Origin: Bryoerythrophyllum caledonicum
Lineage: Eukaryota; Streptophyta; Bryopsida; Pottiales; Pottiaceae
Length of the DNA: 64,000 bases
Direction: 5' to 3'
NCBI GenBank assembly: GCA_963971425.1
Contig: OZ020517.1
Span: forward strand, 17,636,904 to 17,700,903
A model generated the notes under the pieces. The model did not search any database. It saw only the letters and a list, made by a program, of their open reading frames with translations, and was not told the DNA's origin. The position numbers were made by a program, and so were the translations under genes. Within the stretch, counting starts at the first letter, position 1. The number at the start of each line of letters is the position of its first letter. Below are positions 15,601 through 62,970 of the stretch, in pieces.

Positions 15601-16397
15601 TTGAAGCCCTTTGTTAAATTGTTGTTGAATGCCAACCGTCCATTTTTTAGGTGGGGAGAAATCATGGCCAACAAAATGTTACGTGAGCTGAAAATCTCTT
15701 GAACAAGGTGCTGATTTTTGGGACTTTGTGTTGTCATAACACATGTTGCTCAATAAGTGGCCGAACCCTTTCCCGAGATGAAAATATTGCATACTACAGA
15801 GTCTGAAAATATACTAGAAATACTACGCAGTATATCAATTTTTTCAAGGCTAGGTTTTCAACCGAAAACTAGATTTTGAAGAAAATGATGGAAAATAAAA
15901 ATATTTTTGAAAACACTTTATGTTTTAAGATAGATTTTTGTATGCTAAAGAAGGTTCGATAATAATTTGGAGAAAAAATCAACATTTAACCCCCATTTTA
16001 AGTATTTTTGACAATAAATCCATTTTTTGCTATTACAAGTAAATTTAAGTCTTTGATCATAATTTTTCATTTGGAATGACTAAAAAGAACATATTGTGCA
16101 TGTAATCTAAAAGTTTTGTAGTATTGTGAACTTCTAATCTCCCACAAGAAGTATATTTGTATACTTCTTAAAACTGTGACAAATATATAGTAATTACAAA
16201 TATACTTCTTCTCATTGAATCGTAGAGGGTTTTGGTGAAAATTTATGATATGTGTGATGGCATGGAAGTGAGGACTCACATTTTGGAGACCAACATCTGA
16301 AATCAAAAGCAAATTGGGCATGTGACGCGAAAGAGCACTTGTGACATGGCAAAAAACGGTTTGTGACACTATTCGTGCCACCTTAGTCGACTATCAC
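15601..16397. other. AT-rich stretch, nothing recognised
   Basis: It lies between the copia RT start and the left edge of the inserted block. A 104-aa minus-strand ORF (16067-16381) has no recognisable domain. The short dyad AAGAAGTATA/TATACTTCTT near 16147-16170 is the only structure noted. Confidence 0.35.
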
Positions 16398-16421
16398 CCA
16401 TATTCATTATATTGGGAGATT
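16398..16421 (+). repeat. Left copy of a 24-bp inverted match bounding the block
   Basis: CCATATTCATTATATTGGGA plus four more bases is identical to the reverse complement of 62054-62077, 45.6 kb away. The sequences diverge on both sides of the 24 bp. It is a candidate terminal inverted repeat, but no target duplication is evident. Confidence 0.5.
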
Positions 16422-16679
16422 AGGAGCCTCCCAAAATAATACGAAAAACTTGAGCTAACCTAAATATGCAAATGTTTAGTGATTTGCATAGTAACCTTTG
16501 AATACTATCTTTGAGTTTGGTGTCCATTAAAATGGGAGGTGCGGAATTATTTTCAATTTAAAATAAGGCTAGAAAGAAATTGAAGTACATTTTTAGCTTC
16601 AGTCAAGCTAAAAGCAAGCAATACTTACAACTCCAAATATCATTCAAAAACGAAAGATCAAATGTCAAGGCACAAAAAT

Positions 16680-16990
16680 GCATTTCTCGAATTGAAACAC
16701 ACTATCAACTCGATTCGAGCTGAATGTGCCCCAACAATTCCTATGCGATAAAACATTCAGAATAGCAAATATCAAAGGGCAAATCATCAAGCCCAAAATT
16801 CACTTCTCTCCAAGAAAAAAGCCATATACATTTAGCTCGAGTCGAGCTGAATGTGCCCAAGCAATTCCTATGCGATAAATCATTTAGCATAGCAAATAAC
16901 AAAATATCAAAACTCTGAAATGTATTAATCTCTACAAGAAATGGGTGTACAATTTCAGCTCGATTTGAGCTTAAATCATGCCAACATATT
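16680..16990. repeat. Three diverged tandem units of about 125 bp, each with a palindrome
   Basis: Palindromic cores lie at about 16703-16730, 16826-16857 and 16952-16980. The first two units also share GCAATTCCTATGCGATAAA-type sequence after the core, and the last two share a CTCTxCAAGAAA string before it. The array lies just 3' of gene A (minus strand). Confidence 0.65.
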
Positions 16991-17050
16991 TCAATCTTAT
17001 GCACACATTCTTGGATACAAGTATAAGAGCAACATCTTTGTACTAAAAAA

Positions 17051-17482
17051 TCATTGCGAAGAAGATGGCTCGGTATCCCTGATCAAACTATCTTGAATGA
17101 TTTGAACTTGATTTCTAGGTATCTTCACAACAGGAAATTCACTCCTACTTCTAGACTTCCATGCAGTCAACAAAGATCCGGTGTCCTCCCATTGCGGAAG
17201 TTGCTCGTCATCAATTGTCCATTGTAGACCGTTGGAAGAGGCCCATCCATCATAGCATCTTTCGACATTTGCATCGCACGAAGTTGGGCGAAAGTACTGT
17301 ATTTTGATAGAATTAGGCCTTTCTAGATCCGAATTAGGGTCCGAGAGCGCTTGTGCAATCCAAATAGGGCGTTCATCTCCATCACATGCTCTTAATGCAA
17401 CAAAATAGCTTGAGTAAACGTCTCGATTAATCCGAAAAGAAGGGATTGGCCTATCTCGACTCTGCCCAACAAAGTGGTCATC
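17051..17482 (-). CDS. Gene A, C-terminal exon (BAH/SH3-like segment)
   Basis: An open minus-strand frame of 143 codons ends at a TGA at 17053-17051. It has no ATG start, so it is probably an internal or last exon. Motifs in order: DDHFVGQSRDRPIPSF, YFVALRACDGDERPIWIAQA, SIKIQYFRP, LLTAWKSRSRSEFPVVKIPR, ending EPSSSQ. The pattern FVAL..DE.PIWIAQAL followed by IQYF resembles the small beta-barrel (BAH- or SH3-like) tail that I recall in some DUF7869-type proteins; this is from memory. The frame differs from the preceding ORF (17392-17844), so an intron or a frameshift lies near 17480. Gene B has no counterpart. Confidence 0.55.
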   Translation of the reverse strand, partial: DDHFVGQSRDRPIPSFRINRDVYSSYFVALRACDGDERPIWIAQALSDPNSDLERPNSIKIQYFRPTSCDANVERCYDGWASSNGLQWTIDDEQLPQWEDTGSLLTAWKSRSRSEFPVVKIPRNQVQIIQDSLIRDTEPSSSQ

Positions 17483-17844
17483 TCATCATGATCCTTACGA
17501 ACAGCGCCCACACTGGTAAATTGGTCCTCGATTGTTTGACCAATACGACTAGAAGGCCAAAAACCAACCTGTAGAGAGGTGGGCAAGTCCATTAGTTGAC
17601 TAAGTGACTCTCTAACTTCCCACCAATAATAGCTCAAATCGCCTTCAATATTCACATGCATGATCCTCACGTGCTTGACGCTCCCAATATGAAATGAATC
17701 CAGAAAGACCTTTAAACACTTCAGGAAGATTACGCATTGCATGAGGCTGCAATGAAGGTGGTTCTCCACGTGGCCACAAAGACCTCCCATTTGAATCATC
17801 TTTCCACAATTTGATGCCACCCCCTTCTTTTGGAAGCCAATCAT
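17392..17844 (-). CDS. Gene A, linker segment between core and tail (part of the ORF)
   Basis: The useful part is about 17670-17480 on the minus strand: VNIEGDLSYYWWEVRESLSQ, LMDLPTSLQ, VGFWPSSRIGQTIEDQF. It follows the DUF7869 core frame (which stops at 17645) in a neighbouring frame and precedes the tail exon. The first half of this ORF (before about 17700) overlaps the core in another frame and is not meaningful. Whether introns or frameshifts join the pieces cannot be decided by eye. A GT-type donor candidate follows CTCTACAG near 17570. Confidence 0.4.
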   Translation of the reverse strand: MIGFQKKGVASNCGKMIQMGGLCGHVENHLHCSLMQCVIFLKCLKVFLDSFHIGSVKHVRIMHVNIEGDLSYYWWEVRESLSQLMDLPTSLQVGFWPSSRIGQTIEDQFTSVGAVRKDHDEMTTLLGRVEIGQSLLFGLIETFTQAILLH

Positions 17845-18817
17845 CTTGATGACAAAGAATCTTGTATTTCATCATGGGACATCCATTGGAGTCAATAAAG
17901 AATTTGAATTGGTAAGCCTTTGTGTGGCCCTGCAATGCTTTGTCTCCACCTACAATACTTTTACTAATAAAGGACTTGAAGTCCGGGACTTCTTCAATCA
18001 AGTGGGGGACTGATGGCATACGTCCGTTCTCCTTAAATGATCTCATAAGCAAAGGGATTGTGGGGAAACTCTCCTTCTTCAAAGCCATACTCCATGGACC
18101 GAATAATGCATCAATGTCATCATATGTGTGGCCAACAAGCATGAAATTAACATAAACCTCTCGGAAGATACCCTTTGCAACAAGAAGAGACCGAAAGCAA
18201 AACACATATCTATTTTTGTTGTCACTCACCGCATTGTCCATTTGCACATACAAAATAGGCGGCAAAGGTTTTGCTGTAGCTAGAGACTCAGGTGCGGCGC
18301 GGAGGAATGGGACACAAGTATCTGAAGCTCCTTGCAAAACAGCTCGAAGCAATGCAATTCTTCCCGAATCCTGAAATAATTGTCGGGACAATGTCTTCGG
18401 AGGTTGTTCTAAATCTCGCAACAATCTAGCAAAAAATCCCACTGTATAGTTGACATCATGTGGGTAAATGTCCAAGCCATAATGAGCATAACAAACATTG
18501 CCATGACCATGTGCAAGCATTCCAGTTACAGAGATGGGCAACTTCATCAGACCATCCAAATGTTTCGTCTTGTGAGAGAGGACAGGAGATGCAGTCTTCG
18601 AGTGATCCATCTTGTCGTGCATAATCGTAACACATTCATACGGCAACTCTTGAGCGCGGTAATGGTTGGAATAATACAACTTTCGATGAGCCCATGCCTT
18701 GGAAGAACTTGGAATTCCATCAACTCAGCATCTACTGGATCGTGGAAAGACGAGTTGTCACCTGACAAATCAAAATCATCGTCGATTCAGGCACCGGTTG
18801 AAGTCTCCATCTCGGCA
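17645..18817 (-). CDS. Gene A: DUF7869-type protein, core exon
   Basis: A minus-strand exon that opens after an acceptor (TTAACTTTGCAG, 18818-18829). The long open frame runs from about 18727 to 17645. From the first TYR-TYR (YYSNHYRAQELPYECV), the motifs are HDKMDHSK (aspartates about residues 22 and 25), LAHGHGN, DIYPHDVNYTVGF, LYVQMDNAVSDNKNRYVF (Asp 148, Asp 153) and FMLVGHTYDDIDALFGPWS (residues 179-195). These are the signature blocks of DUF7869-type proteins, found in expanded, transposon-like families. The spaced Asp blocks resemble an RNase H-like (DDE/D) nuclease, which is inference. The start is unresolved: a 6-codon first exon (ATG at 19218-19216, donor at 19201) precedes a palindrome-bearing intron. 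Gene B is its inverted partner. Confidence 0.7.
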
Positions 18818-18944
18818 CTGCAAAGTTAAGGCGAAAGTGTAATAAGTTGATGTAGTACAATAGTACTCCAAGGTTCATCCCACATCAATCAAAGTGAACA
18901 AAAAAATAGCATCATTGTTCATCTCCACGATTAGGTGAAAACAA

Positions 18945-18979
18945 AGCACATTCAGCTCGACTCAAGCTGAATGTGCACA
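18945..18979. repeat. Palindromic unit in gene A intron 1
   Basis: About 35 bp: half-site GTGCACATTCAGCTCGA facing its reverse complement around one base, with few mismatches. Confidence 0.85.
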
Positions 18980-18992
18980 TCACATACTGTAC

Positions 18993-19024
18993 TCATTCAG
19001 CTCGAGTCGAGCTGAATGTGCACA
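18993..19024. repeat. Second palindromic unit in gene A intron 1
   Basis: CATTCAGCTCGA, G, TCGAGCTGAATG with flanking TGCAC: a near-perfect palindrome. Gene B has five such units in the corresponding intron. Confidence 0.85.
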
Positions 19025-19200
19025 ACATATTTTATGTCCGGAGTTAGCGGCAATAATATCGGGCACAATTGATGATTGCTTAAACGAAGAGTACTAAATC
19101 AAAACTTGAAGCACTCATACCAACAAAAACTACGCATTTTCACAATTGCAAGAACATATATGTCATACTGACGTACAAATAAAAAAACGAATCTCTAAAC

Positions 19201-19218
19201 CTGTACTAAGGAGGCCAT
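19201..19218 (-). CDS. Gene A, candidate first coding exon
   Basis: ATG followed by five codons (MASLVQ) and then GTTTAG after CAG, a fair 5' splice site. Gene B has the same exon (59168-59185, MASSVQ). The frame link to the next exon is not clean, so this remains a candidate. Confidence 0.35.
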
Positions 19219-19602
19219 TGTGTCAACGCCGAAGTATCACCTCCTTCCTACAACTTTTTCATTACATTGAAAATGATAGTATCAAATGTGCGAACCAAAT
19301 GCCAAGTAAATCACCATAAAGTTTAGACATAAGTCACTTATAAATGGTCCAATTGCGTGCACCAAAACGTCTTGAATGAAGAAGGAAGAGAAAACCCTAC
19401 TCTTTGTCACGGCCGCAGCGACCATTCACGACCACACACCTCCGCATCTCTAGAAATTCCAAACACAACTAAGTTGACCTAGAATAATGTATCTACTTTT
19501 TGCACATAAATTTGACTTCAAATGCAATAGGGTTTTCAAATGTCAAGGCGTACTTCGAGACAATATAGATTCACGAAGGCTTGCCGAGTATTAGAAAGGT
19601 GC

Positions 19603-19606
<4 letters not shown>

Positions 19607-19684
<78 letters not shown>
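19607..19684. repeat. (AG)n microsatellite
   Basis: About 39 uninterrupted AG units upstream of gene A. The mirror (CT)n lies at 58717-58780 upstream of gene B. Confidence 0.95.
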
Positions 19685-19688
<4 letters not shown>

Positions 19689-20039
19689 AGTTGGGGTGTA
19701 TTGACCACGTCGAACAAGTTGCCGTTAAGAAAAGAGTGGGAATGACATCATGTTTGGCGGAGAGGAGCTATTCCAAATAAAACATCTCCCAAATTTGACC
19801 AAAAAATTAACAACCACATAAGTTTCTCCTCATATCTCGATGTAATGGAAGTTTCTGTTTACATGATCAATTGAGGTTATGGATTGGGGTTATGGGTATC
19901 AATTTAAATTTGCAAGAATCAATAATTTTAAATTTAAGGTATAGAATTATGTATCAATTTAAGGTTATCAATTGGGGTTATGGGTATTTGATTACGGTCA
20001 TTTATTTCCATATTAAGGATATTGATTATGACTAGATTA

Positions 20040-20345
20040 TAAAAGTAAAGATTTAGGTTTAGGGTTCAAATTACATTTTGACACTGAGGGTTTAGGATTT
20101 AAGGTTTAGGATTGCAAGTCCATGGTATGAAGTGTAAATTATAGGGTTTAGGGTTTCGGACTAAACAATTCTAGAATTAGATTTATGGATTAGAGTATAG
20201 GGTTTAGATTTAAGGGTTTAGTTTTTAGGATTTAGGATTTATAGTTTATTGTTTAGGTTTAATGATTTAAAGATTAGGGTTTAGGATTTTAGAGTTTAGT
20301 GTTTGGGGTTTAGATGTAGGGTTTAGATTAGCATTGAGATTACCA
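20040..20345. repeat. Degenerate telomere-like repeats (TTTAGGG type)
   Basis: About 20 imperfect words such as GGGTTTAGG, AGGGTTTAG and GATTTAGG run in one direction, many 7 bp apart. They are too degenerate for an active telomere. The mirror array CCCTAAAC lies at 58086-58340. Confidence 0.75.
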
Positions 20346-20405
20346 CTCAATCAAAATGTCCTTTCTAAAAGATTGTTTATCGTATCAAAATTGAATTGCA
20401 CCTTT

Positions 20406-20410
20406 GTATT
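20406..20410. repeat. Target duplication GTATT, left of the tandem retroelement
   Basis: Directly precedes the first LTR. Identical to 55607-55611, directly after the third LTR. Confidence 0.85.
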
Positions 20411-20584
20411 TATAAAGCCTAAATCCTAAAAATGGTTTTTTTAAGAAAATTAAGTGTAAAAAGGATTGTAGATATATGGAAAATTAAATAATCAATGATT
20501 AAGTTTACATTAAATAGTTAATTAACCAAAAAGTGTCTCTTCATATCTAAGAAATAAGAGATAATGGGAAAAGGGTTGAACTTG

Positions 20585-28943: not shown

Positions 28944-28953
28944 AAGAAGGGGG
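28944..28953 (+). other. PPT-like AAGAAGGGGG just after pol, copy 1
   Basis: TAAGAAGGGGG occurs here and again at the true 3' PPT (37112-37121), on either side of the 3' accessory region. Confidence 0.6.
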
Positions 28954-32522: not shown

Positions 32523-32594
32523 AGGAAGAAATGTGTCGACCTGCAGGAACAAGCGAGACAAGCCCAAGGACGTGAGAAGGAGGTCCAAGACCTC

Positions 32595-32819: not shown

Positions 32820-33122
32820 TCCTCCTCGAGAGTGGAGTGTCCTCTCCAAGTTACAGAAGGAGGTGGAGACTTTGACTAAGGAGCGAGATCAACTTTGGTC
32901 GAGAGTCGTGACTGAGTGTGGGGCGAAGAAGCGAATGCAGGAGTGTTTGTGGGAGCATGAGTTGCAATCCCCTCCTCCTTTCTCCCTTTTTCGTAATTAC
33001 GAGTTACAACGGGAGACCTTCCTTCGCATGACCTAGATAGCTCCAGGAGCAACACTCCAAGAGCAACACTCCAAGATGCGGAGTTTGATGTCATATGGGA
33101 TAGTGCAGAGCATTATCCCAAT

Positions 33123-41375: not shown

Positions 41376-41513
41376 GTGGGATATAATCCAGTTTGTGGAA
41401 GATGTGGACAACTTGGTCATGTTTCTACTTATTACACTGTTGTTATCACATAATTTCCTAATGTAAGAAAACAAGTTCACATTCAAGAGGTAGAATCCTC
41501 TAATGCTAGAGAT

Positions 41514-41897
41514 GTGAATTATCTGGCTGTTGATACACCCCAAGATGTTTTTATTACTAGATCACAAGCTAGAAAAGCTAAGGAACAAGAGCCAATTAGT
41601 AGTTCAGAGAGTGATTACAGTAAAGTTAAACTTAATCCTGTGCTTAGTAGACAAATGCCCACTATACTTAAGAAACCTGAACCACCTAAACCCAATCCAG
41701 AAACAATAGATATAACAAATAGTGATTCCCATACCAACATTAGGCGAGAGCCTATACAACCAAAAGATGTATCTCCACCTAAGGATAAGCCAAATATTCC
41801 AACAAAGTTGTTGGAACAACCTACTTTTTATAGACCTTCAAAGTCTATTGTTAAAGAACCATCATTGACATTGAAAAAAGAAAACATCATAGAATGA
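41514..41897 (+). mobile_element. Gag-protease linker ORF, copy 2
   Basis: Identical protein to 24800-25183. Confidence 0.6.
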
Positions 41898-41986
41898 TGG
41901 AATTAGCTGTTGGGATGAATCCTTATGATATCCTTATAGATTTGGATAGACTACAACCTCAGATTTCCTTAAGATAGTTACTTGCT

Positions 41987-42556
41987 TTGTCACCATCTTG
42001 TAAGAATGAATTAACATCCTCTTTAATAAGGAAAAGAGCCAAAATAATTGAGGATACCAATGTTAAGAACGCTAAACCAAAAATAAACAAAGAGACAAGC
42101 AAACTTCAGCCTGAGATTGTAAGTGTCCATGATATCTCTTTTGATCCAGGAGCACCTACAGTTGATGTCATTATAGATAGAACTTTAGTTGATGGAGTCC
42201 AAATTGATAGTGGGAGTAGTGTTAATCTTATGAATGTTAACACTATGGAAGAGTTAGGTATAACTAACATAGTACCTACTCCTATTATCTTAAGAATGGG
42301 AGACCAAAGCCGAGTGAAACCATTAGGTAAATTATTGCAATTAAATACCATAATTGGTGAGATTGACTATAAAGTTGATTATATTATTTTTAAAGTAACT
42401 GAGTCTATATCCACTTACCCTATTCTCCTTGGCAGACCTTGGTTATCCTTAGCCAAAGCTAAAGATGACTGGGATAAAGGGAGGTTAACAATAGGGGAGG
42501 GTAAAAGTAAAATAGTGCTACCTATCTTTCCAGTGGAGTACCACGGAGAAACTTAG
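41987..42556 (+). mobile_element. Aspartic protease region, copy 2
   Basis: Identical protein to 25273-25842 (IDSGSS, LLGRPW). Confidence 0.85.
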
Positions 42557-42928
42557 AATGAGGATTCAGATTGGACCACTGAGGTAGACTCTGAATCTGA
42601 ACCTGGTGACACTAATAAAATCCAAGATATGCCTACTATTAAAAGTTTAGGTCCTGGAGAATACTTTATTCCTCCTAGTCAGATGGATGACTCAGATGCA
42701 GCCATAGAAGCATGGCCAAATGCCCCAATATATAATGTGACAATTGAAAAAGAGTCAGATAAGGAACTTCCTTACGTAAGTGATTTAGAGGAATTACTGG
42801 GTGAATAGAAGACACCTATTGTCAGACCTTTAATAAAAAATACTGTAGAAATAAACTTAGGAACTAAAAAAGATCCTAAGCCAATAAAAATATATGATGG
42901 ATTACAACCTCAAGAATATGATGAGTGG

Positions 42929-45639: not shown

Positions 45640-45657
45640 GAGGGCAAGTTAAGCATT

Positions 45658-45667
45658 AAGAAGGGGG
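45658..45667 (+). other. PPT-like AAGAAGGGGG after pol, copy 2
   Basis: Counterpart of 28944-28953. Confidence 0.6.
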
Positions 45668-47835
45668 TAGGACCTCCAAGATGTGACCTTTTATGCGGTC
45701 CGGAATGACCCTAAACTACCTAGGTGAAAGTAAGAAATAATGGCAAAGTTTTGAAGTCTAAGTGAAGGTGATTTTTAACTTTGCATTAAAAAATTTCTTA
45801 CTTGATGGGATAGGTCACAAGTTGCTAATAAAGTTACTTGTGTGGTAAATAAAAAATAAAAAATAAATAATAAATAAAAATAAAATTACATAATAGTGCC
45901 TCATGAAGAAAGTGAAAAATAAAGCAACAAGTTGGGAAAGTACCCTCAACAAGTTAATTTTTAAAGTGATTAAATGACTCTACATTTCTTGAACGAAAGT
46001 GGAAAAATATCTAAAAGATTTAGAAGCAATATGAGTTTGAATAAGTTAAACACTTAAGACTTCATAATAAAAACTTTTTTTGGATTTTAGAAGATTTTTG
46101 AGAGATCACTAAAATAACCATTTGTTTATGTTAAAAAATAAAAACGAAAATAAAAAGAAATTTTTGAGTAGAATTCTCAAATTTACAAGTGGTAAAACTT
46201 TTTAGACATGATGGCATGAGTATGTACTTAAGAAAAAAGTTAATGAGTAAGATTGACAAAATAAATGCAAGATAAAAAAGAGTTAAGTCTCGACCCACTT
46301 TAATTTTAACTAGAAACCGTGAGTGTAAGCTCATTGAAGCTGAGATTATGCACTTAAGGGAAATCAGAAAAGCGTGAAAACAAATTAATGGTTGAAAGGA
46401 GACAAACTCTGTTGGAGCTACTTTCCACATGGATGCCAGACAAGGAGCCGAACGCATGATCATGGAAAAATTACAAGAAAACGAAGATTTGATCTTGACA
46501 ATGATGAATGGTGTCAAAATCAGAGATATTGACACGTTCCGTTGATCTGGTAAGTTACACTCGTTGAATTAATCATCATGCAGACTCGTCAAGAACGAGT
46601 AAAAGGAGTTATTTTTCTGCCTGTTGATGTCCGCCATAGCTGCGAAGTTGAGAGAGCATGGGGGAAACTGAGAGTGTAGAAAACCATGTGTTGTGAGAGA
46701 GTAGGGAAACTTGACTTTGTAATTCATAACAAAACTCGCGAGATAGTGCGTGAACATCTTGCGCCGAGACAAGCAACTGAGGTATGTGCTTCAAACATTT
46801 TGTGATGGCTGGAAGTTGATTTTCACACCAACCTTGTAAGTTGATTTCTGCACAGACTAACGGAAAGGTGTGTAACAGACGAGAAAAAACTGCGGTTGGG
46901 AGCCAAGACCAAACCCTGTTGAGGTAAACAATGCTGACTCACTCATAGGAAGTAATATAATGACTGACTCACTCATAGGAAGTAATATAATGACTGACTC
47001 ACTCATAGGAAGTAATATAATGACTGCCAAAATTGAAGAACAAAGTTAGTAAGTTCATCTTGTGTATAACCGTCAAGAAGTTTAAACTGAAAAGTTCAGT
47101 CGAACTAAGAAATGTTATGACAGTTAAGAAAAAAAAATCTTTGGAATTATAAAGTAGTTATGAATCAGAGAAGCATCAAATGAAATTATCATGAATGAAC
47201 ACAGTTGTGAGAAGGTGAAGTCTCTGAGTTGAGTAAACAAACGTATACTCCAACACAATGGGGAGTATTCGTTGTAATCTCTCTGTCGTATATGAGTTAA
47301 CAGGAACCCTAACAATTTTTCCAAGAAAACAAAAAAATCAGACTTAAACCTAAAGACATTTAAGTTGTTGTGTGTGTGGGAATGGTGTTAAGCAGACTGA
47401 ATTGTCAGAAGGGAGTGTAATCAGGAAAGAAAAAAGAGTATGTAAAAGTCTCAGTCTTTTTAGTAAGATTAGCGCTTAAGTGAACTTAATGTGTTTCAGT
47501 CTGCATGTGAAAAAATAAAAAGTGCGGAAGTCGAAACTACATTTTTATGATTAAGTTGATAGAATACAGTCGTCAATAAGTTATGCCGAGTGAACAGCGA
47601 GGAAATAAAGAAAAATAGAAGAAGAGTGACGAAGAAGACGAATATCGAAGGAATCCTCTTACCATGGTGATGCCAAGTTGGAGTATTGATGAGGCTTGCA
47701 CCAGAGCAGACACACAAGACAAGATGACAGCAGCCAAGAGCAGGAAAACCGACTTTCTGTTGGTCTCATCAGAAATGCACTACTTGACGGAAAAGGCAAT
47801 GACAGCCAATCGCCAGAAATTTGGAGAGCACATGA
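45668..47835 (+). other. Noncoding part of the 3' region, copy 2
   Basis: Counterpart of 28954-31121, including the 30-bp triple repeat at 46935-47024. No gene seen. Confidence 0.5.
46935..47024. repeat. 30-bp triple repeat, copy 2
   Basis: Three perfect units, the same number as in copy 1. Confidence 0.95.
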
Positions 47836-49236
47836 TTGTGGCCGTTTATCATACAGAGATGGCCTGAACCGAATCTTCAACGAGCACGAGCGTTCATCAT
47901 CACCAGTGACAGAGGGACCCTTGATGAATTTGTCATTGAAGACCAGGTGGTGGCGTTCGACCTCGCGACCATCAAGAGCCACTTTCCTGGATTGAGTGAC
48001 AACGGGCCGACACTTGTGAATATTCCCCTCCTGGACCGTAAGACCCTGCGGAAGATCTTTGATGCGCTAAAGAGCGCGAAGGTTGACAAGAAAGATACGA
48101 AGAAAGGATACACAGTGACTAAGGCCAAGTCACGGTGGAAGGACTGGCTTCAATTCGTGAATCGACGATTGTTGATGTCACTACCAGGTCCAAACGTGAT
48201 CTCATTCGAAGGGCTTGCAGTAGCTTACAGGGCTTGGCATGGTGATAGATTCAACTGGAGCAAGATCCTGTATGTGCACATCAAGTTGGAGATGGCGAGC
48301 AAGACCACCTGCCACACGAAGTCCTACTTCTGCACCACCTACCTATCTGAGTTTTGTCCTGAATTACGGAAGCAAGGTTCATCTAAGCAGATGGAGGAGA
48401 AGAAGAAGACAACACCAACTATCAAGAAGCGACCGAAGCGAGGTGAGAAAAGACAAGAGGAATCAGAGGATGAAGGAGAGACAGGGGCGCTGGATGTGCA
48501 TAACATGCTTACCCCGGAGGCTCCAACTATCCAAATGAGAGAGATGCCCGAACCTCAGCCAGAGAGCGAAGAGCAGCGGACTCCCACCTCGGGCGCACAA
48601 AAGACCACCAAGAAGAAGGCGCGACGGGAGGCACCTACCGAGACTAGACCTGCACCTCAAAATCTGGCTGCTGCCTTGGAAGAGATAGAAGGAACCAAGA
48701 GCAGAGAGGCCGATAAGGAGAAAGTGGAGGTCGTCATCGACTTGGAAGATGGAGAGAATACGACTTCTAAGGCGGAAGAAGTGGTTTCTACAAAAACCGC
48801 AGACCCAACCACCAGTTCGAAGGCAGCTGAGGAAGTGACGACTTCAAAAGCCTCGAAGGGTAAGGCCAAAGTGGACGAGAGAGTCGTTAACTTATCCAGA
48901 GGAAAGTCGACCAAGGATGATGTTATCTTGCCAGTGGGCAAGAAACAATTAGAGTTGTTGGTCGTGGAAAAGGATGATTTGATAAAGGAGTATCAAAGGA
49001 CTAACGAGTCTATCTTCCTTGCCACTGAAGAATTGGAGTTTGCGCTTCAGAAGGAGAAGGTACGGGCTACAGCAGATGTGCGGAAGGTACAACAAGAAGC
49101 CGATGACTGGAAACGCAAGCATGCTGAAGAACAGGTGCTGAGGAAAGCTAAGGAGCAGCTAAATGAGCAGTTAACGAACGAGAGGGATGAATTGAAGAAA
49201 GAAGTGGAACAGCAAGTCACTCACGTGACACACTAG
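47836..49236 (+). mobile_element. Accessory ORF 1, copy 2 (466 aa)
   Basis: Protein identical to 31122-32522. Confidence 0.6.
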
Positions 49237-49308
49237 AGGAAGAAATGTGTCGACCTGCAGGAACAAGCGAGACAAGCCCAAGGACGTGAGAAGGAGGTCC
49301 AAGACCTC

Positions 49309-49533
49309 ATGACCGAACGTGATCCAGCAGTTGCAGGAATGCGTAGAACGAAAGAATTGTACGAGAGTGAGCGAAGCCGTGGGGAGCAGTTTGCTAAAGA
49401 ACTGGTGGAGCTCAAGCAACGGCATGCGAAAGAAGTCACGGATTTGCAAAAACAACATACCAAGGATGTTGGTGATTTGAAGGGGCAACATGCGCGAACG
49501 GTAGGAGACTTGAAGAAGCAAAGGAGTGAATAG
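49309..49533 (+). mobile_element. Accessory coiled-coil segment, copy 2
   Basis: Protein identical to 32595-32819. Confidence 0.55.
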
Positions 49534-49836
49534 TCCTCCTCGAGAGTGGAGTGTCCTCTCCAAGTTACAGAAGGAGGTGGAGACTTTGACTAAGGAGCGA
49601 GATCAACTTTGGTCGAGAGTCGTGACTGAGTGTGGGGCGAAGAAGCGAATGCAGGAGTGTTTGTGGGAGCATGAGTTGCAATCCCCTCCTCCTTTCTCCC
49701 TTTTTCGTAATTACGAGTTACAACGGGAGACCTTCCTTCGCATGACCTAGATAGCTCCAGGAGCAACACTCCAAGAGCAACACTCCAAGATGCGGAGTTT
49801 GATGTCATATGGGATAGTGCAGAGCATTATCCCAAT

Positions 49837-51070
49837 ATGAGAAACTTGATCTGTGAAATGCTAGCACGAGGTGCTTTGCAACTTACAAGTGTAAGTAAGT
49901 TCACACACCCGATAGGAGATCTGGGTGCCAGAGTTTTGCTTTATTACATGACACTAGAGCATCAGCTTGCCTTCAAGAGGGCGCGGGATAAGCCCAATGA
50001 AGTTTTTAGAATGGTGAAGATCCCTGAGAACAGGGTGGCTCTAGCGAATTCTCCAGAGTGGAGACAACTGATAGAAATTCTCTATCACGAGATACGTGAT
50101 GAGAATGCGCTCATAAGTATCTTGACTCATGCACAAGCTCGAGAGGCACTTGCTCAGAGAGTAGAACTCTCTACGGGACAATACGTCCATGAATACACCA
50201 GAGTGTGTCAACGTCTCCAGAAGATAGTGGAAGGGCAACAAGTGGCTGTCCATAGTATAGAAAATACTTATCAGCAGGTTCTTTTTGCTCCACCTCCATT
50301 CGACTTCAAGGTGCCACTAGGTGTGAAGATATCCCTACTAGTGATGGGATCCCTCTTCAAGCAGTGGTATTTGGGCAATTATGACCTCATGTTTGATGAA
50401 GCTTCGGAGAAGCCCTTTGCTACGTGGACTACGATGGAGTGGCTGCTTGAAGACTTTGGTGTGTCGCCCAAGCAATGGCGACCATGGGACGTAGTGTATC
50501 CCTTGCTTACTCAAAGTTGGCCGGTGATTGTCTCAGCGGCGGTAGCTCTCGACGCACATTTATGTCCGCTACAGGGGCAACGGCGTTATAAGTGGGCGGT
50601 ATGGGCGAAGCTGGACACAATGCCATATTATTCCGGTATGGGCGGTATGGCCCATTATTCTGGGAGCATTCGACACACCAGAGGAGTGTGTGAATTCTTA
50701 CCGAACCTTTTTTGAAGCTCACCGTCACCATACAGATCCAGTTTGTTTTAGAGTTGCAGTGTTCTGCAATATGTTGTCGTATATGTACTCATTCTACAGG
50801 ATTGTGGTGAATGCTAATCGTTACAACGAGAAGAAGGTGGAGTTTTTGATGTGGATAAAGTTCCAACAACATCCGGCGCGGTGGATTTGGATGTTTGAGT
50901 GCATGATCATCACTCAGTTCTTGTCTCCATCCAGTTCGGCGTTTGCATTGGAGTTCGAGCCAAAGAGGTACAAGGATATCTCATTATGGTTGAATTTTCA
51001 ACGGACTCGTAAGAGTGACTTGTTACGAGATGAAGATGTGTGCCGCAACTTGGAAGAAGCGGACAAATAG
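49837..51070 (+). mobile_element. Accessory ORF 2 region, copy 2
   Basis: Proteins identical to those at 33123-34356. Confidence 0.5.
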
Positions 51071-55611: not shown

Positions 55612-58085
55612 GATTGAACAAAATTCATTACATATCACTTAAAGATAAGAGTTAAGAACTCACTACTTCATCTCATTTATTATGAATTAATATTTACTCC
55701 TTTGAGTTGACTTTATAAGATGATATTGTCTCATGCGATATTGATACACTTGCTATTATTTATTTATGTGTTTTTTAATTCAAATCATCTTTGACTCCAA
55801 AGGCCCGAGAGTCCCCTTGAAGGATTCTAAGAATTTTTGGAAGTTCCTATAGAGTCAATTTATTAGTTTTTTGGTGTCGGCTCTAATAGCGCATCCGTAT
55901 CCGTTGATCGCAACATTATGCAATTGTCGCCATTATGGACATAAGTTTGAGTGCCTTCAAAAAGTTATGATCGCAATATTTTTTAATGTCATTCAAACAT
56001 ATTGCAAGTTGATGTGTAACTTTGCGCACTTGCAAAAGTTTGGTTCCATCACTCTTCCCTTTATTGCAAAGGGTACTACCTTACATATGCATTCTTTCAC
56101 ACAAAATTCATGCGTTACATATTATACATAAGTTTTTACTACTATCTTTTCTTCCACATGAATAAGGGTCAAAGATCACATGCGTATGTAAAAACATTTG
56201 CTTAAAAAACTAAAGTTCATTATCTACAACTATACTCGTATCAATATTTTCCATTGAAAACCACTAGTACTCCGGTTGAAAAACAATGGTAGAGTTTACT
56301 CTTAGGCCTCCCCTCTTTCAACAGTAGAGTGTTACACATGTTTACAAAATGAATTTGAGTATTAGATTTGCATCAATAATTTTTATTTTTTTTGTTCTTG
56401 TTCATCAACAACCATACGTAGTTCACCTAGTATGTTAACGACAAGCTTACATGTCCATTTTAATATTTCAAAATGCTCCAACACCCTTGGTGGTAACTCA
56501 ATACAAATTTGGCTTTGACCTCATTGATAATATCTAAAGGCAATTAAAAGAATAAAAAACTATCAAATTCTTCAATAATTATCGACATGTTCTTTGTATC
56601 AATATTGTTCTCCATTGTAATATCTTGTCTTAGCGAGGGACCCTATGAGGGTATCATCTAGGTTTTGGCTTCTGTACGTATATAGTGAAAATTATTATAT
56701 ATAGAGATAAATTATGATATGATATAAATTTATAAATATTGGTAGAGTCAATTGATAGAAATTAAATACTTGGATAGAATTTATACTTAGTGATCAAGCT
56801 TCTATTATATTTTTTTAATATTTTAATGTATTTTCAAAATTATATTTTTTGATATTCAATGATTAATCTTGTAAAAATATTCAACTAACAAAATGTCAAT
56901 TATTAATGACTCTTTGGATTTAAAAGATGACCTTTAAAAAGAGGTGTACAACAAGATTAACTTTATTTATATTTTCATTTATCAATAGTACAATCAAATT
57001 CATTAAAAATGGAGAGTAGTCCAAAATTTTGGAAAGTATAAACTTTTTGTCCAGGTGATTATCCATGTAACGTTAAGGTGCTACCTCTATAATGCATAGG
57101 TGATACCCATGAAATACTTAGGTGAAACCCACTGTGTCCAAATCATTGGGACCAAGAAAAATAATTCTTTTGACTTAGAGGTGTTGAAGAGACCACTAGG
57201 TACGGTAATGATAATCAATGATTATAAATTCTTGATCAATTGCACATTTTTTCCTTTTAGAAATCTATAGTTAAATTTCAAATAAATTTGGAGTCCTATT
57301 GTCCAACCGTAGGAATTTGATATATCCTAGGAATAAACAATGATCATTTGAGGTAGCTTTGATATGATTGAAGACTTCAATTTCAAAATCAATGACTTAT
57401 TGCATATGTATTAAAAAATACAATCTCATTATTGAAGTTTCGTTTCACAATAGATTAGGATTCTCAATCCATGAAAGATATTTGATAGTTTTCAAAATTA
57501 GATTTTTAATTTGAAGCCCCCTCATCCAATCACTAGATTCCAATCTACTTAGATATTTATTTAAACTCACTATTTTATCCATAATATTGCCACTAGGCCA
57601 AAATCTATGCATGTCTTTCAAATAATATTAATTTTTTTGAACATATACAAACTTTGGAATTATATTTTTGGTTTTTATATATGTGCTATCACAAAAAGAA
57701 GAAGATTAAATATTGTAACTCAATTGTTTAACCATAAATCTTCCAAAAAAAGAAATTGATTTTTTTTTATTGTATAATCCCAGTGTCTTTGATCTGCGTT
57801 CACTACAGGAAGTTTTTGAGTATGAATATATACGAGCCTATAGAGTAGGTGCAAAATGTATATAACACAAATTGTATATAATAATGGCAATTTTTCTTCA
57901 TATTGTAAGATTGTCATTCATCATGTAAAGTTGCAATGGGCCGATTCAAAAACAACATGTCCAAAATAGTCTTCACCATCACTTCAAAGCCATAATCTTC
58001 CAAATTCTACTATGAAGGAATTAATAACATTTGTATAAATACATATATTCATTTAAAACATAGAGGTTGTTATGTTTGGCCCTTC
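55612..58085. other. AT-rich spacer, nothing recognised
   Basis: About 2.5 kb between the retroelement and the right arm. Short ORFs (55871-56131 plus, 57720-57917 minus) have no family. The left arm has only about 100 bases of corresponding spacer (20311-20405), so most of the original space between the two DUF7869 genes lies here. Confidence 0.4.
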
Positions 58086-58340
58086 TCCTAAACCCAAAAC
58101 ATCAAACTCTAAAATCCTAAACCCTAATCTTTAAATCATTAAACCTAAACAATAAACTATAAACCCTAATTTCTAAAAACTAAACCCTTAAACCTAAACC
58201 CTAAACCCTAATCCATAAATCTAATTCTAGAATTATCCAGTCCAAAATCCTAAACCCTATAATTTACACTTCATACCATGGACTTGCAATCCTAAACCTT
58301 AAACCCTAAACCCTCAATGTCAAAATGTAATTTGAACCCT
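58086..58340. repeat. Degenerate telomere-like repeats (CCCTAAA type)
   Basis: Mirror of 20040-20345, with words such as AAACCCTAA and CCTAAACCCT. Confidence 0.75.
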
Positions 58341-58710
58341 AAACCTAAATCTTTACTTTTATAATCTAGTCATAATCAATATCCTTAATATGGAAATAAA
58401 TGACCGTAATCAAATACCCATAACCCCAATTGATAACCTTAAATTGATACATAATTCTATACCTTAAATTTAAAATTATTGATTCTTGCAAATTTAAATT
58501 GATACCCATAACCCCAATCCATAACCTTAATTGATCATGTAAATAGAAACTTCCATTACATTGAAATATGAGGAGAAACGTATGTGGTTGTTAATTTTTT
58601 GGTCAATTTTGGGAGATGTTTTATTTGGAATAGCTCCTCTCCGCCAAACATGATGTCATTCCCGCTCTTTTCTTAACGGCAACTTGTTCGACATGGTCAA
58701 TACACCCCAA

Positions 58711-58716
<6 letters not shown>

Positions 58717-58780
<64 letters not shown>
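58717..58780. repeat. (CT)n microsatellite
   Basis: About 32 CT units; mirror of the (AG)n run at 19607-19684. Confidence 0.95.
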
Positions 58781-58783
<3 letters not shown>

Positions 58784-59167
58784 GCACCTTTCTAATACTC
58801 GGCAAGCCTTCGTGAATCTATATTGTCTCGAAGTACGCCTTGACATTTGAAAGACCTATTGCATTTGAAGTCAAATTTCTGTGCAAGAAGTAGATACATT
58901 ATTCTAGGTCAACTTAGTTGTGTTTGGAATTTCTAGAGATGCGGAGGTGTATGGTCGTGAATGGTCGCAGCGGCCGTGACAAAGAGTAGGGTTTTCTCTT
59001 CCTTCTTCATTCAAGACGTTTTGGTGCACGCAATCGGACCATTTGTAAGTGACTTCTGTCTAAACTTTATGGTGATTTACTTGGCATTTGGTTCGCACGT
59101 TTGATACTATCATTTTCAATGTAATGAAAAAGTTGTAGGAAGGAGGTGATACTTCGGCGTCGACACA

Positions 59168-59185
59168 ATGGCCTCCTCAGTACAG
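59168..59185 (+). CDS. Gene B, candidate first coding exon
   Basis: ATG and five codons (MASSVQ) end at CAG before GTTTAG, a fair donor. The same small exon is in gene A. The frame link to the core exon is not clean. Confidence 0.35.
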
Positions 59186-59363
59186 GTTTAGAGATTCGTT
59201 TTTTTGATTTGTACGTCAGTATGACATATATGTTCTTGCAATTGTGAAAATGCGTAGTTTTTGTTGGTATGAGTGCTTCAAGTTTTGATTTAGTACTCTT
59301 CGTTTAAGCAATCATCAATTGTGCCTGATATTATTGCCGCTAACTCCGGACATAGAATATGTT

Positions 59364-59499
59364 GTGCACATTCAGCTCGACTCGAGCTAAATATGCAGTG
59401 CACATTTAGCTTGACTCGAGCTGAATATGCAGTGCACATTCAGCTCAACCCGAGCTAAATATGCAGTGCACATTCAGCTCGACTTGAGCTGAATGTGCA
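59364..59499. repeat. Four tandem 34-bp palindromic units in gene B intron 1
   Basis: Units at 59364, 59398, 59432 and 59466, each 34 bp, each a near-palindrome of GTGCACATTCAGCTCGA-type half-sites. Mismatches differ between units. Confidence 0.92.
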
Positions 59500-59510
59500 C
59501 AGTATGTGAT

Positions 59511-59544
59511 GTGCACATTCAGCTTGAGTCGAGCTGAATGTGCT
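59511..59544. repeat. Fifth palindromic unit, gene B intron 1
   Basis: Separated from the tandem four by 11 bp (CAGTATGTGAT). It corresponds to the gene A unit at 18945-18979. Confidence 0.88.
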
Positions 59545-59671
59545 TTGTTTTCACCTAATCATGGAGATGAACAATGATGCTATTTTTTTGTTCACTTTGA
59601 TTGATGTGGGATGAACCTTGGAGTACTATTGTACTACATCAGCTTATTACACTTTTGCCTTAACTTTGCAG

Positions 59672-60997
59672 TGCCGAGATGGAGACTTCAACCGGTGCCT
59701 GAATCGACGATGATTTTGATTTGTCAGGTGACAACTCGTCTTTCCACGATCCAGTAGATGCTGAGTTGATGGAATTCCAAGTTCTTCCAAGGCATGGGCT
59801 CATCGAGAGTTGTATTATTCCAACCATTACCGCGCTCAAGAGTTGCCGTATGAATGTGTTACGATTATACACGACAAGATGGATCACTCGAAGATTGCAT
59901 CTCCTGTCCTCTCTCACAAGACGAAACATTTGGATGGTCTGATGAAGTTGCCCATCTCTGTAACTGGAATGCTTGCACATGGTCATGGCAATGTTCGTTA
60001 TGCTCATTATGGCTTGGACATTTACCCACATGATGTCAACTATACAGTGGGATTTTTTGCTAGATTGTTGCGAGATTTAGAACAACCTCCGAAGACATTG
60101 TCCCGACAATTATTTCAGGATTTGGGGAGAACTGCATTGTTTCGAGCTGTTTTGCAAGGAGCTTCAGATACTTGTGTCCCATTCCTCCGCGCCGCACCTG
60201 AGTCTCTAGCTACAGCAAAACCTTTGCCGCCTATTTTGCATGTGCAAATGGACAATGCGGTGAGTGACAACAAAAATAGATATGTGTTTTGCTTTCGGTC
60301 TCTTCTTGTTGCAAAGGGTATCTTCCGAGAGGTTTATGTTAATTTCATGCTTGTTGGCCACACATATGATGACATTGATGCATTATTCGGTCCATGGAGT
60401 ATGGCTTTGAAGAAGGAGAGTTTCCCCACAATCCCTTTGCTTATGAGATCATTTGAGGAGAACAAAAGTATGCCAACAATCCCCCACTTGATTGAAGAAG
60501 TCCCGGACTTCAAGTCCTTTATTAGTGAAGGTATTGCAGGTGGAGACAAAGCATTGCAGGGCCACACAAAGGCTTACCAATTCAAATTCTTTGTTGACTC
60601 CAATGGATGTCCCATGATGAAATACAAGATTCTTTGTCATCAAGATGATTGGCTTCCAAGAGAAGGGGGTGGCATCAAATTGTGGAAGGAGGATTCAAAT
60701 GGGAGGTTTTTGTGGCCACAGAATGATTTGTACTCCCTCGGAGCAGCTGATTATTTGATGGACTCTTCGATGGCTCCAATTGAAGAAGATGAAGTAAACA
60801 GCCCCCCACCAAATGTTTGCATTCGAATGGATGACTCCTGTTCTATTCTTCAACCTCGTCGAATTTTGGGGTCCCGATGTGTTGATAGGTTTTGTGGGAA
60901 AGCTGACCAAGTGCTTTTTCGCGGACGTGAGGAATCATTGTCTCTTCCTCCACGTAGCATGGTGTGCCCCCCCTCTCCTTCTCCGTATTTGTCCTAG
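59672..60997 (+). CDS. Gene B: DUF7869-type protein, core exon
   Basis: The exon follows a clear acceptor (TTAACTTTGCAG, ending 59671). The core frame is open from about 59765 to 60997. It shares with gene A the blocks YYSNHYRAQELPYECV, HDKMDHSK, DIYPHDVNYTVGF, HVQMDNAVSDNKNRYVF and LVGHTYDDIDALFGPWS, so all candidate acidic residues are kept. After SNGRFLWP the protein differs completely from gene A: DYLMDSSMAPIEEDEVNSPP, MDDSCSILQPRRILG, ending PPSPSPYLS. A GTCTTT after CCTAG at the stop could be a donor, so the last codons may be spliced. A stop upstream at 59762 leaves the true start unresolved in both genes. It may be a transposase-like gene or a host gene; I lean to transposon-derived. 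Confidence 0.68.
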
Positions 60998-61012
60998 GTC
61001 TTTTTTGGCAAT

Positions 61013-61047
61013 GTGCACATTCAGCTCGAATAGAGCTAAATATGCAC
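61013..61047. repeat. Palindromic unit, gene B intron 2
   Basis: GTGCACATTCAGCTCGA then an imperfect mirror (AGAGCTAAATATGCAC), shortly before the next acceptor. Confidence 0.8.
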
Positions 61048-61084
61048 AAGTTGCATTTTAACTCCCTTTGTTCCTACGTCATAG

Positions 61085-61246
61085 GATCACGTGCTTCAAA
61101 CACTTGCTGGTGTAATTGAACCACCTATGACGGTGCCATTAGAGAAAATGCCCTCAATTCCTACTACGTGTTGGTCTATTGCAACGGTCGGAAATGATGA
61201 GAACATGGTCCAATCTCTAAGTGGGAAAACGCATTCTACTACTGAG
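61085..61246 (+). CDS. Gene B, candidate exon 3
   Basis: An open frame between TCATAG (acceptor) and GAG/GTTGGT (donor): VLQTLAGVIEPPMTVPLEKM...KTHSTTE, about 53 codons. No domain is recognised. It starts with the same codons (GTG CTT CAA) as the next exon. Confidence 0.45.
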
Positions 61247-61403
61247 GTTGGTCCAATTTTTTGTTATTGTTTAATATGTGTTGTATCTTCTCCTCTTAAT
61301 CAACACTGTTTTGATTTTGCATGTTTTACGAACCCTAAATTGGACATAATTATTTGAATGGATTTCACGTCATGGTGTTTGTATTTTTTTGACATGTGTG
61401 GCT

Positions 61404-61428
61404 ACATATTCAGCTTGATTTAAGCTGA
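61404..61428. repeat. Degenerate palindromic unit, gene B intron 3
   Basis: ACATATTCAGCTTGA facing TTAAGCTGA, close to the acceptor TTTTGCTAG. Confidence 0.6.
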
Positions 61429-61450
61429 TTTTTGCGGTTTCTTTTGCTAG

Positions 61451-61711
61451 GTGCTTCAACCGACTATAGAGCGTCAAAGTGCTTCCCCAAAGCATGGTTT
61501 AAACCAAAACTCAAAGCGCCACTCTCGCCGTCGCCACTCGCTTCCTGTGCCTGTTGTTACTTGGAATCAACAAATGCAACGCCAACGAGTGCAAGAACAT
61601 ATACGTGCTAGTCAAATGCTATATACCGGTTATACCCGCAAAAATGAACTTCAGAGGGGTAGGGATGAGCTGAGGAAATCTAATTTTGGTGGCGTGGAAA
61701 AGAACAAGTAG
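61451..61711 (+). CDS. Gene B, candidate last exon (basic C-terminus)
   Basis: Follows TTTTGCTAG and ends at a TAG (61709-61711). 86 codons, strongly basic: SKRHSRRRHSLPVPV is a likely nuclear-localisation or nucleic-acid-binding stretch, followed by an amphipathic helix (WNQQMQRQRVQEHIRASQML). No known domain. The exon has no counterpart in gene A, whose 3' exons encode a BAH/SH3-like tail. Confidence 0.5.
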   Translation: MLQPTIERQSASPKHGLNQNSKRHSRRRHSLPVPVVTWNQQMQRQRVQEHIRASQMLYTGYTRKNELQRGRDELRKSNFGGVEKNK

Positions 61712-61733
61712 ATTTAAGATCTGAGTGGTACAA

Positions 61734-61767
61734 GTGCGCATTCAACTTGGCTATACCTGAATGTGCA
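61734..61767. repeat. Degenerate palindromic unit 3' of gene B
   Basis: GTGCGCATTCAACTTGGC then a mirror ending CTGAATGTGCA, just after the stop codon of gene B. Confidence 0.65.
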
Positions 61768-62053
61768 TTGACTAGGAATTAATATGTATGTTTTGGGTCG
61801 TAGTAGAAGCCTTTTCCTGCATGGAAAGGATGATGCATGTTTTGTATATGGATTACTTATATCATATTATAAATAAAGTCTCCAATAAAAGATATTATTT
61901 CATTTGATTCTCCAATTTGAGTACTCTTTGCACATACAACTTCATATTATCTTACAAAACTGGTGTTGTACTTCTATTCTAATCATGTTTTGCTTCATCA
62001 CTACTGTAAAATATTTGGATTACTCAAGAGTGTGTACCTCCTAAATCCCTGGA
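61768..62053. other. 3' flank of gene B, nothing recognised
   Basis: AT-rich sequence with AATAAAG-like words near 61872-61885 that could serve as polyadenylation signals for gene B. No gene is seen. Confidence 0.35.
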
Positions 62054-62077
62054 AATCTCCCAATATAATGAATATGG
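62054..62077 (-). repeat. Right copy of the 24-bp inverted match
   Basis: Reverse complement of 16398-16421. Copia sequence begins directly outside it. Confidence 0.5.
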
Positions 62078-62970
62078 TGTTGTGGGGGTTTCGAAGATTC
62101 GTCTACCAAGGTGAAGGTTTCAAAGTTTCGTCTACCAAGGTAGGGGTCTCACTTTTCCCACTTGGACTCATCTCCAAAACATCACTAATACTACTAGTAT
62201 GTTCAACAAATATTGCATCAAAATTTTTAATGATCTTCTTCGGCTCAATGCACATGAGCGATATGCCTTAGTACCCTCACAATAGCCAAGAAACAAACAC
62301 TTTATACCTTTTGCAACAAGTTTACCCCTCTCTGTATCTGGCACCATGGCATATGCAATGCATCCAAACACACGCAAATACACAATGCATGGCTTGCGGC
62401 CACTCTAAGCTTCTTGTGGTATGATGGTGACGAGAGCTCTCGTTCAACATCAATTGCGGATGTAGACCACACCAGCCACCGCTTACGCCTAAAATTCAAG
62501 CTTTAGGAGCTGCGCATGGATATGCTCCTCGTCATTTCCACCATGGTACAATTTGTCGGCTCCGCGATTCCATTTTGCTCTGGCCTCTGAGATGTTGACA
62601 TAAGCCTCTCAATGCCATGCTTCTTCAAGAAACTTTGAAAGCCTTTAGTGAGGACTTCATATTCAAATCATGATTCTAAACCAAAACACCTTGATTTCAA
62701 TGCTCCGTTTGCTTCTCCGCAAGGGCCTTGAACTATTTGAACTCCTCAAGGCATTCCTCCTTTGTCTTCAAGATGTATACCCACACCCTTTTCGAAATGT
62801 TATCAATGAAGGTCACAAAATACCTTGTACCACCTATGAAAATGGTCCACATGGGGCCGCATACATCCAAATGCACAATTTCCAAAGGCTTTGTTGCACG
62901 CATCACTCCAACCTTTGAAAATGGTGCCCTATATTGCATGCCTTGCACGCACCCTTCACAAAATGACATT
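62078..62970 (-). mobile_element. Copia element, integrase region
   Basis: The minus strand shows MSFCEGCVQGMQYRAPFSK (CxxC of the zinc-binding part), EIVHLDVCGPMWT and GTRYFVTFIDNISKRVWVYI (integrase core), later LRVFGCIAYAMVPDTERGKL and CLFLGYCEGTKAYR (C-terminal GKGY-like region). The element continues 5' to the window end. It is an old, broken copy. The RT half in the same orientation lies at 12.1-15.6 kb. Confidence 0.85.

Follow-up and report, generated by a model that had tools for sequence, protein, structure and literature searches.

Palindromic motifs in non-coding sequence of a giant DNA transposon resembling Sola-1 are candidate binding sites for an element-encoded protein

Introduction

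The bacterial parS sites of ParB are palindromic, are read by a dimer and occur as several sites per replicon. Among DNA transposons, VANDALs are Mutator-like, and CACTA (En/Spm) elements carry subterminal repeats. The accessible part of a published survey gives duplications of 7–12 bp for the Mutator-like superfamily, 3-bp duplications with CACTA/CACTG ends for CACTA (En/Spm), and 4-bp target duplications with terminal inverted repeats of 11–1124 bp for the Sola superfamily (PMC10741241). Sola1-1_Ec32 of Ectocarpus, as portrayed in the accessible part of its report, is 21.5 kb long and harbors a ParB-like/methyltransferase gene on the opposite strand; the authors suggest that this ParB-methyltransferase protein may bind the transposon that encodes it, and modify it (PMC12477816). 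In Arabidopsis, VANC21 binds a short motif that lies in non-coding sequence of VANDAL21, both in introns and in intergenic and terminal regions, and VANDAL21 copies differ in how many motifs they carry (accessible part of PMC5735166).

The present study deals with a 35-bp palindrome with the half-site GTGCACATTCAGCTCGA, found in a 64-kb stretch of DNA (the window, i.e., the whole stretch analyzed) around two DUF7869 genes, A and B. The transposon family to which it was traced agrees with Sola in having 4-bp duplications and 28-bp terminal inverted repeats.

Results

The window was scanned both with the half-site and with the full palindrome unit. With up to three mismatches, the half-site gave 18 matches, as against a mean of 0.06 and a maximum of 1 in shuffled sequence. 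The full-unit scan placed the units in two blocks (16.6–19.0 and 59.4–61.8 kb) and found no unit elsewhere in the 64-kb window, in agreement with the first-pass annotation, which had seen the palindrome only around genes A and B and had counted two units in A and five in B within the same intron. All of its 13 unit positions were recovered, some of them off by a few bases, along with one weak extra unit at 16585. The units are as follows (both scans unless stated otherwise):

16585..16619, strand., weak palindrome unit (21/34 letters, 11/17 pairs; full-unit scan)
16697..16731, strand., palindrome unit, 3′ non-coding region of copy A
16824..16858, strand., palindrome unit, 3′ non-coding region of copy A
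16947..16981, strand., degenerate palindrome unit, 3′ non-coding region of copy A
18944..18978, strand., palindrome unit, 5′ intron of copy A
18989..19023, strand., palindrome unit, 5′ intron of copy A
59364..59398, strand., palindrome unit 1 of the 5′-intron array of copy B (34-bp spacing)
59398..59432, strand., palindrome unit 2 of the same array
59432..59466, strand., palindrome unit 3 of the same array
59466..59500, strand., palindrome unit 4 of the same array (16/17 pairs)
59511..59545, strand., palindrome unit 5 of the same array
61013..61047, strand., palindrome unit, gene-2 intron of copy B
61402..61436, strand., weak palindrome unit, next gene-2 intron of copy B (22/34 letters; full-unit scan)
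61734..61768, strand., palindrome unit 3′ of the gene-2 stop codon, copy B (full-unit scan)

Genes A and B are defective transposon remnants rather than working genes. Their features are given below:

16396..20413, strand −, partial transposon copy A, comprising its 3′ region, the remnant of the DUF7869 gene and the 5′ intron (alignment with other copies)
16396..16421, strand +, terminal inverted repeat, left end of copy A (CACCATATTCATTATATTGGGAGATT with 2 differences)
17645..18724, strand −, DUF7869 open frame, copy A remnant (PF25273, E 1.1e-43)
58080..62081, strand +, transposon copy B, rearranged: DUF7869 part joined to the gene-2 3′ end and the right end
59765..60718, strand +, copy B, DUF7869 part (PF25273; the entire frame 59765–60997 gives E 2.2e-42)
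60719..61711, strand +, gene-2 3′ exons, misplaced behind the DUF7869 part of copy B
62054..62081, strand −, right terminal inverted repeat of copy B (exact)

Of the terminal ends, A has the left, which is shared with L010, L012, L016, L017, L020, and L023, and B the right; the homology of A with other copies shows an interruption near 20413. Both lack a stretch of ∼1.08 kb that is present in 8/8 other copies aligned on both sides and forms an open frame in L017 and L023, and both have a stop at the eighth codon, counted from the start used in these two copies. The gene-2 3′ exons of B, which share 92% identity with the right end of a 22.8-kb copy, are fused to the DUF7869 part; in the standard layout they lie far from it on the opposite strand. 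A role of the palindrome as a regulator or resolution site of two host genes is ruled out since both genes belong to a repeated transposon, of which they are defective copies, and in the genome annotation these two DUF7869 "genes" are to be read as transposon remnants.

The window also contains degenerate telomere-like repeats (TTTAGGG variants) at 19956–20340, within the transposon and upstream of the palindrome-bearing intron. Two near-identical retrotransposon bodies of the Gypsy type occupy 23648–34356 and 40362–51070. They point the same way and, as measured on their open frames, are 16,714 bp apart; the first of them has extra long open frames without a Pfam family (e.g., 31122–32522).

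Searching the eukaryotic genome (437 Mb, 894 contigs) with the exact 25-letter core of the palindrome identified 185 copies (none with the reversed control), and a degenerate 29-letter form gave 1,076 forward and 1,060 reverse matches (control 0), most sites being counted on both strands as this form is nearly self-complementary. From 50 listed core sites of the 185, all on contig C1, 20 loci were fetched with 10 kb around each; these are chosen places and not a random sample. All 20 lie in one DNA transposon family, 8 in miniature copies of 163 bp and 12 in long copies, of which 10 have DUF7869 and two (L011 and L024) have gene-2 sequence. The 163-bp elements (8/20 loci) carry the 28-bp terminal inverted repeat AACACCATATTCATTATATTGGGAGATT at both ends and the palindrome in the middle, and the long copies contain several palindromes each, at spacings of, e.g., 34, 45, 52, 71, and 123 bp. 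Two further short elements of 237 bp each were present in the fetched loci. At L011:3–1616, pieces of a hAT-type transposase (DUF659, Dimer_Tnp_hAT) adjoin the gene-2 fragment.

The element ends read AACACC...GGTGTT, and a 4-bp target duplication was found in 11/11 elements checked, i.e., in 10/10 short elements and in one long copy of 22,796 bp. The latter is flanked by ATTT/ATTT, as read from 100 bp of its left terminus and 4.9 kb of its right terminus. One of the 237-bp miniature elements sits inside a long copy (L024:3517–3753, duplication TTAC), and the related stretch of L019 (L019/L026) is uninterrupted at this place. The family is a giant DNA transposon resembling Sola-1, with miniature derivatives of 163 and 237 bp. 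The first 25 letters of the terminal repeat occur exactly at 826 places in the genome (control 0). Pairing of ends among the first 100 listed places (C1, 0–32.77 Mb) yielded 15 elements of 162–163 bp, 7 of 236–237 bp and 8 pairs at 5–35 kb; the long spans with a gene-2 exon inside measure 33,820, 22,796, 23,372, and 23,128 bp, and the others 18,266, 18,128, 18,550, and 7,471 bp. The earlier suggestion of a nascent satellite does not hold, the units with ends and duplications being the elements of 163 bp, 237 bp and ∼23 kb.

In the same 32.77 Mb of C1, 23 of the 34 exact cores are ≤25 kb from an exact terminal repeat, compared to a mean of 3.6 and a maximum of 13 under random placement (2000 draws). 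Nine of the 34 are in short elements and 2 between long paired ends; the remaining 23 have no exact terminal-repeat pair around them. When short elements were chosen by their ends only (C1, first 15.58 Mb), the degenerate form of the palindrome was present in 12/13, as judged by comparing the lists by eye.

DUF7869 is a large repeated family with 3,611 first-look candidates, and all of the best 150, which were scored, matched. None of 5 intact DUF7869 loci of other lineages carries the palindrome, which rules it out as a general feature of DUF7869 genes, and the core was absent from viral contigs. The proposed tie between palindrome and DUF7869 genes thus stands for one DUF7869 lineage and falls for DUF7869 genes generally. 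Of the refuting outcome named in the first-pass annotation, a common dispersed repeat unconnected with DUF7869 genes, one half came about: the palindrome is a common dispersed repeat, but its link to DUF7869 is real, since one transposon family comprises the two. On the whole, the first-pass interpretation was partly borne out: the two features share a transposon lineage, while the scope given to the link and the ideas of a mobile unit were not upheld.

Among 102 listed gene-2 matches (the best 100 of 1,645 candidates were scored), 55 lie on contig C1, which comprises 65.2 Mb or 15% of the bases; many of them contain stops. C1 may be a repeat-collecting or a sex chromosome.

The DUF7869 protein is probably the transposase of the element. 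No Foldseek match of the DUF7869 model had an E value under 0.001, and a second look at the matches of the model showed weak RNase H-like ones. DUF7869 had no match among solved sequences, and the literature search under the name "DUF7869" found nothing. Gene 2 is on the strand opposite to DUF7869 in L019+L026 and on the same strand in L021, and contains a NIF phosphatase domain (PF03031). The word YIINGQHSVAAS suggests, in our own judgement, that its product is ParB-like. The ParB_N model had no match in this genome, and a methyltransferase model matched gene 2 weakly (E 0.033) in the relative L040 only. Comparison of gene-2 pieces and profiles with solved structures, NCBIfam and PHROGs gave nothing convincing, phage records gave no match, and the AlphaFold model of the main exon was unusable (pLDDT 36). 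The later part of N6_N4_Mtase matches the genome at 84 places (E up to 1), of which 8 exceed the curated cut-off and have similar lengths and scores (e.g., C9:14278932–14279102 and C3:25317–25487); these are possibly the methyltransferase exon of other transposon lineages.

To locate the units within the elements, 15 stretches were used, i.e., A, B, the 12 fetched long copies and L038. None of 140 units (one of which belongs to the nested 237-bp element) falls in identified coding sequence; 54.8 were expected, and the lowest of 2000 simulations was 35. Coding sequence was defined here by similarity to the element proteins, so that exons outside the queries count as non-coding, and the first query exon of L038 was ended by hand just before a palindrome into which the open frame runs. 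The units are positioned in the 5′ intron of DUF7869, 3′ of DUF7869, and upstream of, in most introns of and 3′ of gene 2, in clusters of one to twelve. The information content drops to ∼0 just outside the palindrome; the flanks, which the scan leaves unconstrained, are not conserved, and the edge of the unit is sharpened by scan selection.

Such sharply bounded units with unrelated flanks would suit a tiny mobile foldback element, one of the first-pass suggestions, that inserts into introns. In keeping with it, 4-bp direct repeats, the length of the target duplication of the family, flank 13/150 units (3.2 expected, ≤8 in 500 shuffles). However, 9 of the 13 are an effect of the 34-bp arrays with overlapping units, and the other 4 (AACA/TGTT; L012:5089, L016:4867, L018:5077, L019:4576) look like a single, related site. 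Of the 128 units that have no close neighbor, only those 4 show the direct repeat, and repeats of 2, 3, 5, 6, and 8 bp showed no excess at the full unit bounds. Apart from the array effects and the one related site, single units thus show no target duplication, and this proposal is very improbable.

A scan of prokaryotic contigs for the palindrome form returned two contigs, L040 (CADCWO010000243.1) and L041 (CADCWO010000269.1), both filed under a cyanobacterial metagenome bin. They encode an intron-bearing gene 2 with 34–62% identity by exon and are hence most likely misfiled eukaryotic DNA. By the inner core, they contain 16 units (0.01 expected in shuffled sequence), 4 of which had served to find the contigs. 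None of the 16 is in coding sequence, where 10.1 were expected, two query exons having been ended by hand where both relatives lose likeness. The g2b–g2c intron has 1, 2, and 3 units in L041, L038, and L040, respectively, and the intron behind the 418-residue exon has one or two in L011, L024, L021, L040, and L041. The palindrome is therefore retained in the introns of gene 2 in a relative from a second organism, although the gene-2 identity is only about half.

The distribution of the units could also arise passively, from a functionless palindromic minisatellite with one origin in the transposon, multiplied by replication slippage and held symmetrical by template-switch (cruciform) repair. 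The strong variation of copy number and spacing between copies (34 to 123 bp, as above) and the modest agreement between arms would suit this, and the absence from exons is explicable by purifying selection on the exons alone. On the other hand, the units share the palindrome and not their flanks, a pattern that tandem slippage leaves unexplained where the units belong to different introns; the relative with the about half-identical protein has it in the same introns, and nearly all ends-chosen short elements retain it. This origin is rather unlikely.

The symmetry of the palindrome is maintained, moderately. The first covariation test, in which units were chosen by their match to the consensus, gave 48 compensated double changes vs. 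39.9 ± 5.3 expected, which is not significant. In a second test, units were detected by the inner core, outer pairs only were scored and exact matches to the search pattern were removed. For L040/L041 (12 units), the pairing of the outer arms was then 0.556 as compared to 0.466 ± 0.041 after shuffling of arms, with 47/2000 shuffles reaching the observed value; for this genome (95 units), it was 0.730 as compared to 0.687 ± 0.008, with 0/2000 reaching it; relatedness of the units inflates such pairing. With the exact-pattern units kept, the values were 0.625 vs. 0.506 and 0.743 vs. 0.699, respectively; units matching the symmetric pattern exactly favor pairing, and the weaker figures are used for this reason. 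Among 56 typed sites, pairs 5 and 9 were coupled (p 0.013 and 0.022, relatedness uncorrected) and pair 14 was uncoupled; among 28 unique sequences, the coupling of pairs 5 and 9 was at p 0.08 and 0.09. The symmetry of the conservation profile (r = 0.91) was set aside as evidence since free orientation and pooling make the arms alike. Substitutions on both arms, as remarked in the first-pass annotation, are thus at chance level with consensus-chosen units and above it at the outer pairs of inner-core units.

Paired arms might act in RNA, as intronic hairpins through which the two transposon transcripts would be spliced, exported or self-processed more readily. Units are indeed present in 3/5 inferred introns of the right end of the 22.8-kb copy, where they also lie behind the stop, and in several gene-2 introns of the relative. 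Single-arm changes, however, keep a G–U pair in the sense RNA in 105 cases and break it in 149; the excess of breaking changes has p 0.007 for all units, 0.13 for DUF7869 units and 0.012 for gene-2 units, and would suit an antisense RNA. Units are also located 3′ of the genes and in the gene-free 163-bp copies, and a function at the RNA level is improbable.

Discussion

We consider it rather probable that the palindrome is a dispersed non-coding cis motif whose units are putative, dimer-type binding sites for a protein encoded by the element. Of the first-pass suggestions, that of binding sites for the encoded protein is thereby retained, as a prediction, as the best one. The observations that fit DNA binding are the dyad symmetry, the confinement to non-coding sequence, the varying repeat number, the retention in the smallest derivatives and the persistence in a diverged relative. 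Each unit would be a dyad-symmetric site for a dimer of the gene-2 product or of the DUF7869 transposase. With many sites over ∼20 kb, the protein may coat and mark its own element, by way of anti-silencing or self-modification; alternatively or in addition, the bound protein may bring the distant ends together for transposition. As to the putative binder, our rough judgement, which is not computed, puts the gene-2 product slightly above even, the DUF7869 protein clearly behind it and a host protein as hardly probable.

Several observations argue against binding sites. The miniature elements may have retained the palindrome simply because they descend from a small number of founders, and template-switch repair of imperfect palindromes could keep the symmetry without selection. 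The pairing of arms exceeds that in shuffles only modestly, the first test not being significant, and just 11/34 exact palindromes lie between two exact terminal repeats. The terminal repeat shares ≤5 letters with the C-type half-site (1809/5000 shuffles do as well); with the T-type half-site it has an 8-letter word in common (44/5000 shuffles do as well). The DNA-binding nature of the gene-2 product is itself putative, given the ParB_N and methyltransferase results above. A more specific form of the binding-site reading, put forward tentatively, is that the palindromes are parS-like self-recognition sites of the ParB/methyltransferase-like protein of the transposon, which would, in a eukaryote, bind its own DNA over the full length of the giant transposon, and perhaps mark it chemically, as an escape from silencing, and would have co-evolved with them across distant hosts.

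With regard to known superfamilies, the family resembles CACTA elements in its large size and repeated short motifs and differs from them in its 4-bp duplications, its AACACC ends and the occurrence of repeats through the whole element; membership in CACTA (En/Spm) is ruled out by the duplications and ends. Ginger, with terminal repeats of 40–270 bp and 5′-TG...CA-3′ ends, is likewise ruled out by the 28-bp repeats and the AACACC...GGTGTT termini. A search of the literature on Sola with subterminal palindromic repeats gave nothing relevant by title among the matches listed. The likeness to parS is that of a palindromic site with several copies per element, for which reading by a dimer is putative here; sequence and length differ, and the relation of gene 2 to ParB is putative.

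The likeness to the VANDAL/VANC system, as far as the accessible parts of the two reports describe it, comprises a short motif that recurs many times, and in varying number, in introns and in non-coding sequence elsewhere, C-type and T-type variants, and a second protein beside the transposase (PMC5735166, PMC10398659). The non-coding motif arrays of VANC-type systems are present in this family, with 0/140 units coding. VANC21 differs in recognizing a 9-letter word, as against a 35-bp palindrome here, and the accessible part of PMC5735166 has 0 occurrences of "palindrom". In the VANDAL/VANC system, as the same parts report, binding and loss of methylation have been demonstrated; for the present family they are hypothetical.

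Sola1-1_Ec32 is comparable in size (∼20 kb) and in the second gene, which lies opposite the transposase in standard-layout copies; gene 2 is read here as encoding putative ParB-like and methyltransferase-like domains. The present family differs in that its gene 2 additionally has the NIF phosphatase domain PF03031 and in that palindrome arrays are unmentioned in the accessible part of PMC12477816 (0 occurrences of "palindrom"). The similar layout and the 4-bp duplications, set beside the published description, indicate that the family is therefore probably a Sola-1 relative. The accessible part of PMC12477816 names no target site for the algal ParB-methyltransferase, and the palindrome, which two organisms retain in non-coding sequence of an element of similar appearance, offers a concrete candidate. 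If this is true, dense self-recognition motifs as in VANDAL/VANC arose in another transposon superfamily too.
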